Part shown: positions 17,744 to 62,086 of the stretch, piece after piece
Position numbering within the stretch: position 1 is the stretch's first letter
Layout of the letters: every line of letters begins with the position of its first letter
DNA from: Planctomycetota bacterium
GTDB taxonomy: Bacteria > Planctomycetota > Phycisphaerae > UBA1845
Length of the DNA stretch: 64,000 nt
Assembly (NCBI GenBank): GCA_024276605.1
Contig: JAJRWX010000044.1
Span: 62,001 to 126,000 of the forward strand
Reading direction: 5' to 3'
Program-made: the position numbers and the translations under genes
The notes under the pieces: generated by a model
Seen by the model: only the letters and a program-made list of their open reading frames with translations
The model's database searches: none
What the model was told of the DNA's origin: nothing

Positions 17744-19603
17744 TTATGAGGCCTGCAATGACGTGATAGTTCGTAGTTCATCCGGGAGTGCGTCGGTCAT
17801 GGACTGAACGAAACTTCCGTCTTCGATGGCACGGCGCATTAAACGAATGTCTTCGTCCAGCGATCGATCTTCGATGATCGGCTCGGCCAGGCTACGCACA
17901 TATAGATATGCTGCGCGTGTACCCACACCAAGCTGCTTTACAAAATTTTTGCGATGTTCATGACGCGTGGCGACAGTAAAGGACTTCGTATCTGCTAGTT
18001 GGCCGTATTCACCCCGGTTTGCGCCGTTGGCATCTGCGTCGGCGGTAACGGCTTTCATACTTGGTTCCACACGACAACCAGCACGCCATTCAATAGCCTG
18101 CGACGCAACCAATAGTTCGATCGCCAGAACCGCCTGCGTGTTGGCTAACACCGTCTGCAATTTACGCGCTGCAATGGTGGCCATCGAATTGTGGTCTTCC
18201 GTATTGGCAGAGGTCGGTACGGAATCGACCGAGGCTGGATGTGTGAGCACCTTATTTTCCGATACCAAACTAGCCGCGCAATATTGCGTGAGCATCAACC
18301 CTGAGTTGACACCCGGCGCGGGTACCAAATTGGCCGGCAAGTTTCGGTTGTGATAGCGATCGAGCAGCATCTGCGTGCGCCGCTCGGATATATTCGCCAG
18401 TTCCGCTAGTGCAATGGCCAGAAAATCCGCAGCTAGTGCTATCGGTTGACCATGAAAATTACCCACGGAATACGCATCCCAATCCTTAGATGGATCTCGC
18501 AATGCAGGATCATCCGGCGCGTCACATGGTGATTCCCCCGGGAAAAACAGCGGATTATCGCAAGCGGCGTTCATTTCACGCTCAGCCACCATACGCGCGT
18601 AGGCGATGGTATCTCGACTCGCACCATGAACCGTCGGTGCACAGCGAACCGAATAAGCGTCCTGCACTTCTATGCAACGATTGACCAGGCTACTTCCGGT
18701 TACCAAAGATAGAATGTTGGCTGCGCTGTCGATTTGGCCGCGCTGACCGCGGGCCTGATGAACCTTGGGATCGAAAGCGCGGGTTCTACCGCAAATGGCT
18801 TCTAAGGTCATCGCAGCCGCAGCATCGGCTGTTGATGCCATGTTCATGGCATCATACACTGCCAGGCCCAACATGGCAGCGGATACCGTCGCACCGTTGG
18901 TTAGCGCCAGACCATCTTTATAACCTGGCAGTGGCAACGTCTTGACGCCAAGTGCTTGCGATAGCTGTGACGCCGAACGAAAATCAACAGGCGTGGGAAA
19001 GCGGTTGGCATCTTGATTCACCACATAAAAACGCCCCTCACCGAGTAGCGTGGCAAACATGTGGGCCATGGGGCATAAATCACCGCTGGACCCCACGGAA
19101 CCCTTCAGAGGAACCAGTGGAATCACACCGGCGTGCAGACACTTCACGATGAAGTCGAGCAGCGCCGGCTGGACGCCGGAATAACCTTTGAGCAATGTGT
19201 TCAGGCGAATCACAAACGTCGCACGTACAACTTCAGCCGAGAAGTAATTGGCTGGATCATCAGCATCCGTGTTGACCCCAACCCCTGCTGAGTGGGATAA
19301 CAAGATATTGCGTTGCAGTTGCTCTAACTGCTGGGGCGCGATAGGGATGTTCTTAAACTCTCCAAAACCCGTCGTCACACCATATACCTGCATGACCGGC
19401 GCATCACTGCCGTCATGTTTTTCATAAGCTTCGATGTAATTTTTAACGATACGTTCGATATATCGGCGGGATTGATTGACGTTCTCCAAAGCTGGCGGAT
19501 CACAAACTACCTGCACCTGCACATCACGAGCCATGCATACCAACTGATCGATCGTCAGTGATTCACCGTCGAGTGTGATGTGATCTTCGCCGATCTTTTT
19601 CAT
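17744..19603 (-). CDS. hutH: Histidine ammonia-lyase-like MIO enzyme
   Basis: Aromatic amino acid lyases remove ammonia using the MIO group formed from an internal A-S-G. This 619-residue protein has VYGVTTGFG with the catalytic Tyr at 74, GSVGSSGDL with the MIO triad at 172-174, QDAYSVRC, DNPLFFPGE and NFHGQPIALAAD. Two selectivity positions point to histidine: LLSHSAG (the SH pair of HAL, against FL in PAL and HL in TAL) and TEDHNSM with the HAL-type Glu. Oddities: the MIO precursor is S-S-G, and the chain is about 100 residues longer than usual HutH. It lies 3 bp after hisS, and no other hut gene is nearby. Confidence 0.82.
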   Translation of the reverse strand: MKKIGEDHITLDGESLTIDQLVCMARDVQVQVVCDPPALENVNQSRRYIERIVKNYIEAYEKHDGSDAPVMQVYGVTTGFGEFKNIPIAPQQLEQLQRNILLSHSAGVGVNTDADDPANYFSAEVVRATFVIRLNTLLKGYSGVQPALLDFIVKCLHAGVIPLVPLKGSVGSSGDLCPMAHMFATLLGEGRFYVVNQDANRFPTPVDFRSASQLSQALGVKTLPLPGYKDGLALTNGATVSAAMLGLAVYDAMNMASTADAAAAMTLEAICGRTRAFDPKVHQARGQRGQIDSAANILSLVTGSSLVNRCIEVQDAYSVRCAPTVHGASRDTIAYARMVAEREMNAACDNPLFFPGESPCDAPDDPALRDPSKDWDAYSVGNFHGQPIALAADFLAIALAELANISERRTQMLLDRYHNRNLPANLVPAPGVNSGLMLTQYCAASLVSENKVLTHPASVDSVPTSANTEDHNSMATIAARKLQTVLANTQAVLAIELLVASQAIEWRAGCRVEPSMKAVTADADANGANRGEYGQLADTKSFTVATRHEHRKNFVKQLGVGTRAAYLYVRSLAEPIIEDRSLDEDIRLMRRAIEDGSFVQSMTDALPDELRTITSLQAS

Positions 19604-19606
19604 GGC

Positions 19607-21040
19607 TTAGCCCTCGATTTGCGCTAGCAGCTTTTGAATAGTCGGAACCAGCTCATTCCGCGGCGCTTCGAATTGCCCCGGTCGTTCAGAGTGCCACTGC
19701 TCATGTCCGGATATTTCTTTGGACTTCTCTCGACCTTGGGCTAAATCCTTGATGGTGACCGTCCCCTTTTCCTTTTCATCCGAACCCATCATGATGGCGA
19801 TGGGAATGTCGGTTTGGTCAGCATATTTGAGCTGCTTCCCCACACGCTTCGCCGTTCCCACATACAACTCGGTTCGTACACCCGCACGCCGCAATTCAAA
19901 AGCCATCGCTAAATAGTCATCTATGAGGTTGGCATCAAAACGAGTAATCAACACCTGAGCAGTGGATTTGACCAACGTAATGCGATCTAAATGCGTAAGG
20001 GCTGCCAGTAGACGATCTACGCCGATGGAAGCCCCGGTCGCAGGTGCAGCTTCGCCTAGAAAACGCATCACTAGGTTGTCGTAGCGCCCACCGCCGAATA
20101 CAGACCCAAATTCAGGGGCGTCAAGAAGAATCGCTTCAAAGACCGGACCGGTGTAATAGGCTAAACCTCGCGCGATGCTAAGATCAAGCGTAACACGATC
20201 ATCGCCATAACCTAGCGCGGCTAATTGTTGAGATATCCGTCCCAACTCGCCGATGGCACTATCCGCGCCATCGAAACCAGCTAAGGCCTCTTTGATTTGC
20301 ACCAAAACATCCTCACGCTTGTCAGCCTTAATATCGAGAAACTGTTCGATCTTTTGCACTTGATCAGAGGATAATCCCAATCCACGAATCGTATCGCCGG
20401 ATTTATCTTTGTAGCCTGTCGTCAGTTCGAGTTTAACTTTATCAAGCCCCAGCTTGTCGAGTTTATCGAGCACACGAAACACATCAGCCGACGCCTCGGC
20501 TGGAATGTCAGCGTAGGGCATGAGTAGATTGAGCACTTTTCTGCTGGACACACGCACTCGGAATCCGCCCACGTCGAGTGCCTCTAGTGTATCGCAAATC
20601 GCTGCAATAATTTCCGTATCTGCAATCTCTGATGTAACCCCTACCGAGTCCAGATCGAATTGCAAAAATTGACGAAAGCGACCGGCACCGGGTTTATCCG
20701 CCCGCCATACCGGAGCCACTTGATAACGGCGAAAGGGGCGGGGTAGGTCAGCGTATTGAGCGATCACTCGCGCCAGAGGAACCGTCAGATCGAACCGAAG
20801 CCCCAGCGGAACCTCCGGATTGTCCGGGTTAGCTACCTGAAAAATCGAAGCCTGCGCTTCCTCACCACCCGATCCACTGAGCACATCAAGAAACTCGATA
20901 GCCGGGGTATCAAGCGGGACGAATCCGTACCCCTCATACACCCCTCGAATCACATCGATCATCCGCTGCCGGGCCAGCATCTGTGCCGGTAGACCATCCT
21001 GTAGACCGCGTGCCAACCGCGGCTTCACTTTCTTATCCAC
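19607..21040 (-). CDS. hisS: Histidyl-tRNA synthetase, divergent alphaproteobacterial-like type
   Basis: HisRS charges tRNA-His with histidine. The 477-residue chain has motif 1 near residues 25-60 and motif 2 as PVWRADKPGAGRFRQFLQFD, which is closer to the alphaproteobacterial RFRQFxQxDxDTVG form than to the E. coli RYRQFHQ form. The HisA motif LARGLAYYTG and motif 3 (GASIGVDRL) are present, followed by an anticodon-binding domain. The gene starts 38 bp after tRNA-His and is followed 3 bp later by the lyase, so all three probably share a transcript. The paired change in the tRNA is described in the findings. Confidence 0.95.
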   Translation of the reverse strand: MDKKVKPRLARGLQDGLPAQMLARQRMIDVIRGVYEGYGFVPLDTPAIEFLDVLSGSGGEEAQASIFQVANPDNPEVPLGLRFDLTVPLARVIAQYADLPRPFRRYQVAPVWRADKPGAGRFRQFLQFDLDSVGVTSEIADTEIIAAICDTLEALDVGGFRVRVSSRKVLNLLMPYADIPAEASADVFRVLDKLDKLGLDKVKLELTTGYKDKSGDTIRGLGLSSDQVQKIEQFLDIKADKREDVLVQIKEALAGFDGADSAIGELGRISQQLAALGYGDDRVTLDLSIARGLAYYTGPVFEAILLDAPEFGSVFGGGRYDNLVMRFLGEAAPATGASIGVDRLLAALTHLDRITLVKSTAQVLITRFDANLIDDYLAMAFELRRAGVRTELYVGTAKRVGKQLKYADQTDIPIAIMMGSDEKEKGTVTIKDLAQGREKSKEISGHEQWHSERPGQFEAPRNELVPTIQKLLAQIEG

Positions 21041-21077
21041 TTATGATTGCCTCCACGCGAAGGGGCTTAATGCAGAC

Positions 21078-21151
21078 TACCAGCGGTGGGACTCGAACCC
21101 ACGACCTCCTGATCCACAGTCAGGCGCTCTAGCCAACTGAGCTACACCGGC
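21078..21151 (-). tRNA. trnH: tRNA-His (GTG), without G-1 and with U72/A73
   Basis: A 74-nt cloverleaf on the minus strand: acceptor GCCGGTG, D arm GCTC/GAGC, anticodon stem CCTGA/TCAGG with loop CTGTGGA (anticodon GTG), T arm GTGGG/CCCAC with TTCGAGT. The 3' acceptor strand is CGCTGGT, giving a G1:U72 pair and two further G-U pairs. Position 73 is A and the base before G1 is T, so the usual encoded G-1:C73 pair is missing. CCA is not encoded. It lies immediately upstream of hisS. Confidence 0.95.
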
Positions 21152-21712
21152 ACTTACAGCGCGGTCGCTCGTAACAGACACAACCAGCCACCGTTAACTA
21201 TCATACGACCATCGCTCGCGTTGGGCAGACGCGAGAATCGCCGGGAAATAGGAACCTTGCGGACCCGACGATGGTATAAGGTCCGGCGTTGTACATGTCA
21301 ATATAGTAGCCCCTAATCCACCGACCCAAAAGCGACCTACGGTCATGCGCAACGCTGTAAAACAAGTAGTCTATATGAAAACCACCGCATCGCGTACGAC
21401 CTCGACAAGTCAGGATTTCATGCCCATAAAGCAATATCCACTCTGTGGTAATAATGATTTCGGCTCTGGTGCTCAGGAGTGAGAATGTTGGACCTGGACG
21501 CTGTTTGGTAAAAATGGAAGCAGTGTGTTGCGTAACTTTTATGGAAATGGTTGCAAAACTGTACAGGTAGCCATACTACTGCTTTGTCGCATTTGAATCG
21601 ATGGGTGGTCGGCATCCAGATTATCACTCTGGTTTTTCACCATGCACTACGGGTAAGCTATCGCTTATCCATGCCACCCAACTAATGATCAGCGACAGCG
21701 AACCAGGTGATT
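21152..21712. other. Interval between divergent tRNA-His and the GT-C/TPR gene
   Basis: About 560 bp. It contains a 7-bp stem (CTCGCGT/ACGCGAG) near 21214-21234 and a degenerate palindromic element near its right end (see 21630-21680). The rest shows no gene or RNA that I can support. The tRNA-His promoter must lie here, but no good -35/-10 pair was found. Confidence 0.5.
21630..21680 (+). repeat. Palindromic element B, short or degenerate copy
   Basis: It ends with ATGCCACCCAACT, close to ATGCCACCCAATT of element A. The hairpin GGGTAAGC-TATC-GCTTATCC (21651-21670, one G-U pair) precedes it, as in the family. The left end is poorly preserved; GGGTGGTCGGCAT at 21603 may be its remnant. It lies just upstream of the GT-C/TPR start. 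Confidence 0.5.
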
Positions 21713-61862: not shown

Positions 61863-62086
61863 AGGGTGCAAGACCGACTAGTCGGTCTTGAGTGGGGTGG
61901 CATGGACAAGCGTCGCCTTGAATGGATCACGGATGAAAAAAGGCGTATGGAGCGACGCTTGCCCGTGTTTTTCCTCGGTTACGCCTGCACGGGCAAACGC
62001 CGCGAGCAGTATCCATTGAACATTCGACATCCCGATTCCGCGGCGTTTGTCCATGCCACCCACCCGCCTATTGTATCATGCACCCC
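61863..62086 (-). repeat. Palindromic element D, inverted copy of element C
   Basis: Its reverse complement matches element C over the 178 or so core bases at roughly nine in ten positions by eye. Terminal repeats GGTGGCATGGACAA (61896-61909) and TTGTCCATGCCACC (62047-62060) are perfect; the outer repeat TCATGCACCCC lies to the right. The left flank holds the perfect 20-bp palindrome AAGACCGACTAGTCGGTCTT (61870-61889), which C lacks. No coding function. Confidence 0.85.

Follow-up and report, generated by a model that had tools for sequence, protein, structure and literature searches.

We describe a gene for tRNA-His and the adjoining gene hisS for histidyl-tRNA synthetase (HisRS) in a 64,000-nucleotide stretch of DNA (the window, positions 62,001 to 126,000 of contig JAJRWX010000044.1, assembly GCA_024276605.1) from a Planctomycetota bacterium. 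With a probability of roughly 0.85, this planctomycete uses the Caulobacter type of histidine identity, in which a HisRS of the corresponding clade would charge a G-1-free tRNA-His with G1:U72 and A73, and obtained it by block replacement.

The HisRS of Caulobacter recognises A73, U72 and the anticodon (PMC9976931), the tRNA-His of C. crescentus is without G-1 (PMC3875453), and for one alphaproteobacterial HisRS the G1:U72 pair with A73 outweighs the anticodon (PMC7590224). The G-1-free tRNA-His and its HisRS were given a likely single bacterial origin in Alphaproteobacteria, where they serve as a phylogenetic marker (PMC3937112), and the origin of the alphaproteobacterial pair is disputed between a eukaryotic donor and convergence (PMC5370408). 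No report of the trait outside Alphaproteobacteria was found in the open-access literature. The identity set is already known. What seems to be new is that it occurs in a wider range of hosts, as linked genes that were apparently transferred, and that the alphaproteobacterial version is nested. It has been argued that the rules of tRNA identity resist lateral transfer. Here, one lineage appears visibly to have switched its histidine pair after the split from a same-family relative, which gives a testable model for the way in which one identity rule is traded for another in a cell. The diverse HisRS/tRNA-His pairs may be orthogonal to the canonical pair.

The tRNA-His gene and its synthetase

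The tRNA-His(GUG) gene was located on the minus strand at 21078..21151 by ARAGORN and by the Rfam tRNA model (70.2 bits). Its parsed acceptor (GCCGGTG/CGCTGGT) gives G1:U72 and A73, and position -1 (21152..21152, minus strand) is T in place of the canonical G. The first-pass annotation had read the same marks, which were borne out by the gene sequence and the parsed acceptor; the canonical combination of an encoded G-1 and C73 is absent. The gene contains no CCA, which is uninformative because the tRNA genes of this genome are generally without it. G1:U72 and A73 were also observed in the tRNA-Arg(ACG) and one tRNA-Met(CAT) of the same genome, so that their exclusion from histidylation must depend on the GUG anticodon or on another element. 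The genome (110 contigs, 96% complete, contamination estimate 2.1%) contained a single HisRS, that of the window, and, with the anticodons of all 46 tRNA genes checked, a single tRNA-His gene; the search gave no second tRNA-His gene with G-1:C73.

On the minus strand, the tRNA-His gene is followed by hisS and then by a PF00221 ammonia-lyase gene. The tRNA-His end and the hisS start are separated by 37 nt with no terminator-like site on the minus strand between them, and co-transcription of the two genes is therefore plausible from the sequence. No other Rfam element was detected near hisS at the gathering threshold.

The hisS gene (19607..21040, minus strand) encodes a HisRS of 477 aa, which matched the NCBIfam hisS model (TIGR00442) with 350 bits (cut-off 287), was assigned by trees to the clade paired with U72/A73 tRNA-His, and was modelled with the HisRS fold at a pLDDT of 91.3. 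Motif 2 reads RADKPGAGRFRQFLQFDLD in the translation, as had been noted before. In the alignment, the loop region of this motif (residues 113-127, RADKPGAGRFRQFLQ; 20660..20704, minus strand) differs from C73-type enzymes at residues 118-119, with Gly118 where Gln would contact G-1:C73; Gly versus Gln in this loop separates the HisRS types (PMC3937112). Two further features are specific to the clade. The first is an insert that lies in the insertion domain at residues 205-222 (20375..20428, minus strand), carries G209, D212, S214, G215 and G220 and forms a hairpin in the model. The second, close to the C-terminus and before the C-terminal helix (19673..19723, minus strand; alignment and model), consists of about 20 additional residues with invariant W449 and Q456. 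The additional length had made an appended tail a candidate. Since solved HisRS and the model align nearly as far as the end of the model, the feature is better read as an insert that would lie ahead of the last strand and helix. Both features were found in 47 of 47 clade members and were absent or nearly so in 18 related C73-type enzymes.

In the mechanism that we propose, RNase P would cut the pre-tRNA-His at G1, and the HisRS would read A73, U72 and the GUG anticodon, with the altered motif 2 loop and the clade-specific inserts standing in for the recognition of G-1:C73. The tRNA marks and the HisRS clade support the earlier suggestion that this bacterium has the same altered histidine identity; that the two types are also functionally the same is inferred from sequence. 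The Caulobacter/'RRCH' pair and the window pair have in common the lack of an encoded G-1, G1:U72, A73, the HisRS clade, both inserts and the altered motif 2 loop with Gly for Gln. In contrast to that pair, the window pair belongs to another phylum, has an enzyme that groups with Acidobacteriota, and has its tRNA directly linked to hisS and the ammonia-lyase gene, a linkage not seen in the Rhodobacterales loci. With the canonical E. coli/Thermus pair it shares the HisRS fold, the catalytic motifs and the GUG anticodon, whereas G-1, G1:C72 and C73 are missing and the HisRS, which has two additional inserts, belongs to a different clade.

HisRS type and tRNA type across genomes

Strong matches to the window HisRS occurred in a scattered minority of 392 Planctomycetota genomes. 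The U72/A73 tRNA-His pattern was matched in 19 genomes of this phylum, 17 of which contained a true tRNA-His on inspection. Across the U72/A73 searches, matches in G299, G140 and G485 were parsed and rejected as not tRNA-His. Where a full-length clade HisRS and a tRNA-His were both recovered, the Planctomycetota tRNA was U72/A73 in 14 of 14 genomes. In addition, G109 had HisRS fragments next to an A73 tRNA-His, G166 had a clade HisRS with no tRNA-His recovered, and G191 and G282 had a U72/A73 tRNA-His with no complete clade enzyme seen. Planctomycetota with other HisRS types had C72/C73 (36 genomes, and 23 more from the class of the window), apart from G265 with G72/C73, and no A73 tRNA-His was found among the genomes read whose HisRS lies outside the clade. 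The same correspondence was observed in Acidobacteriota (n = 149), where the six genomes with a true U72/A73 tRNA-His were exactly those whose HisRS matched best (490-712 bits). The HisRS in seventh place scored 332 bits, and 12 other acidobacterial genomes that were read had C72/C73. Since these counts come from related genomes, they are not independent trials.

HisRS type and tRNA-His type are thus paired strictly across genomes, two variants apart. Among distinct tRNA-His genes, 36 of the clade type had U72/A73 (one, L173, had its 5' arm misplaced by the parser and showed G1 when its sequence was inspected), and all 57 of 57 genes parsed with other HisRS types had G-1, G1:C72 and C73, which argues that U72/A73 in the window did not arise by chance.

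The base at position -1 in the 36 clade-type genes was T in 26, C in 4, A in 3 and G in 3. T is therefore enriched compared with the tRNA genes of the window genome (12 of 46; binomial p = 1e-8 assuming independent genes, which these are not), and ARAGORN drew a U-1:A73 pair for the window tRNA-His. Because of this enrichment, some probability has to be given to a mature tRNA-His that retains U-1 paired with A73, so that G-1:C73 would have been replaced by U-1:A73 instead of being lost. We consider this unlikely, since 10 of the 36 genes carry another base than T at -1, and since the alphaproteobacterial genes read also have T at this position and the mature tRNA-His of Caulobacter and Sinorhizobium reportedly carries no extra nucleotide, as described by Wang in 2007; the lack of G-1 in C. 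crescentus is stated in PMC3875453. The T at -1 may come from a retained U-1:A73 pair or perhaps only from a preference of RNase P for U.

Addition of G-1 after transcription by a guanylyltransferase, which would leave the identity conventional, was considered as well. The window gene resembles that of the eukaryotic cytosolic tRNA-His, to which G-1 is added by Thg1, in having A73 and no encoded G-1, and Thg1-like proteins occur in some bacteria. However, a search for Thg1 (PF04446) gave no match in the window genome, while the positive control in Methanosarcina was matched; and G-1 addition would not require U72, yet U72 is conserved in the clade. This explanation is very improbable. In a further difference from the eukaryotic arrangement, the human HisRS falls outside the clade.

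Phylogeny of HisRS and probable replacement of the histidine pair

The main HisRS tree was built from 67 rows with the motif 2 loop columns removed and with canonical Alphaproteobacteria not among the rows. All enzymes of the window type formed one clade (100/100), in which the window HisRS stood with the alphaproteobacterial enzymes and outside ordinary bacterial HisRS. The Alphaproteobacteria were one nested branch (100/99, with 98/89, 100/100 and 95/86 along the path to it), the window HisRS lay outside this branch, and a tree uniting the other clade members to the exclusion of Alphaproteobacteria was rejected (AU p = 0.0045); the groups of the topology tests were named after the first tree, so this and the following p-values are somewhat optimistic. 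Since the Alphaproteobacteria are nested, the G-1-free trait is probably not an alphaproteobacterial invention, and their version would descend from the same multi-phylum HisRS clade. A quick tree of 78 rows with human, trypanosome, archaeal and Thermus enzymes retained the clade and placed the human enzyme (a long branch) outside, leaving a eukaryotic donor unsupported here.

Within the clade, the window HisRS grouped with acidobacterial enzymes (100/100) as the sister of L080 (100/85). It was 63-70% identical to the acidobacterial A73 enzymes, the nearest at 70%, and its grouping with the other planctomycete A73 enzymes was rejected (p = 5e-48). The earlier description of the enzyme as alphaproteobacterial-like needs one correction, in that its closest kin are acidobacterial and the Alphaproteobacteria are a nested subgroup, not the source.

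The canonical pair is represented in the same family by genome G445, whose HisRS is only 28% identical to the window enzyme and whose tRNA-His has G-1, C72 and C73. The contig itself is native, because its SMC protein was 48% identical to that of G445 and 46% to those of same-order genomes, compared with about 30% for Acidobacteriota. The window ammonia-lyase grouped with homologues adjoining acidobacterial A73-type hisS (100/99), and it probably belongs to the transferred block; no other protein encoded at 10000-32000 matched the acidobacterial A73 loci, except for a frame antisense to the lyase gene. Together, the canonical relative, the native contig and the acidobacterial affinity of HisRS and lyase support the earlier proposal that tRNA and enzyme moved as a linked pair. 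In the simplest reading of these sequences, the tRNA-His–hisS–lyase block was exchanged and the canonical pair displaced. This exchange of the linked tRNA and hisS genes, in which the lyase gene probably took part, would have postdated the split from the same-family relative; the partner would have been an acidobacterial or allied lineage. GC content was rejected as a sign of recent transfer, the block having 0.53 like its surroundings.

A binning or assembly artefact, in which the hisS block or the contig would come from an acidobacterium, could be suspected from the fragmented, metagenome-like assembly with its contamination estimate and from the closeness of the HisRS to Acidobacteriota. 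The SMC identities, the GC content of the block, the lack of any other HisRS or tRNA-His in the genome and the distance from even the nearest acidobacterial HisRS speak against it, and we give it very little credence. Convergence, by which the window lineage would have altered its canonical pair in a change separate from that in Alphaproteobacteria, has been proposed for the alphaproteobacterial case (PMC5370408) and could in principle follow from a few recurring changes in the motif 2 loop, but it is scarcely credible here, as the window HisRS is only about 28-31% identical to enzymes of its own order and class against 63-70% for the acidobacterial A73 enzymes, and as the clade survives removal of the loop and has two specific inserts in common.

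Spread across phyla and the neighbouring lyase gene

When named genomes were scanned with the alignment of the clade, metagenome-assembled genomes of Acidobacteriota ranked highest (62-66% identity), followed by Planctomycetota, Zixibacteria, Neomarinimicrobiota, Bipolaricaulota, Coatesbacteria and Rhodobacterales. The tRNA-His found in these phyla had G1:U72 and A73, with two genomes excepted. Nearly all clade members outside Alphaproteobacteria with known titles are metagenome-assembled genomes, and because of the limited sampling the numbers of phyla and of transfers are lower bounds. We lean, with clearly less confidence than for the window itself, towards a single origin of the G-1-free identity outside Proteobacteria, in the HisRS lineage with two inserts; from there it would have reached seven phyla or more, on repeated occasions through a linked tRNA-His-hisS block that overwrote the resident rule, and the alphaproteobacterial version would be one such acquisition.

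Several observations weigh against the interpretation given here. Some clade members deviate in their tRNA-His, namely Bipolaricaulota (L093/L184), with G1:U72 and G73, and the unclassified G406 (L179/L323), with C1:G72 and A73. Residue 118 of motif 2 varies (G/D/E/A) and hence is not fully diagnostic, and the T at -1 in 26 of the 36 U72/A73-type genes is compatible with a retained U-1. A position of the window enzyme just outside the acidobacterial group was not rejected (p = 0.124), so that the exchange may have run in either direction, with an acidobacterial donor as a candidate. The body sequence of the tRNA-His points to no donor either; body similarity was discarded as a donor test, since the body of a canonical acidobacterial tRNA-His (L296) was as close as the best A73 bodies.

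The histidine ammonia-lyase-like gene of the window (17744..19603, minus strand; PF00221) lies directly downstream of hisS. Genes of this kind (with an SH motif) adjoin clade-type hisS in several phyla, at L077, L078, L079, L083, L084, L086, L092, L093, L095 and L324. Some of these hisS-adjacent lyases have ASG as their MIO triad, whereas that of the window is among those with SSG. Linkage of lyase and hisS was rejected as exclusive to the A73 clade, two C73-type acidobacterial loci also having a lyase gene near hisS.

For canonical HisRS of the window's class (L242 and others), the nearest solved structures were the trypanosomatid and Thermoplasma enzymes, an unusual affinity. Extra 3' halves of tRNA-His that lack a corresponding 5' half were observed at L157 (G018), L177 and L178 (G164) and L169 (G282); L177 and L178 lie 22 kb apart on one contig, and these orphan halves look like attachment-site duplications from integrating elements.
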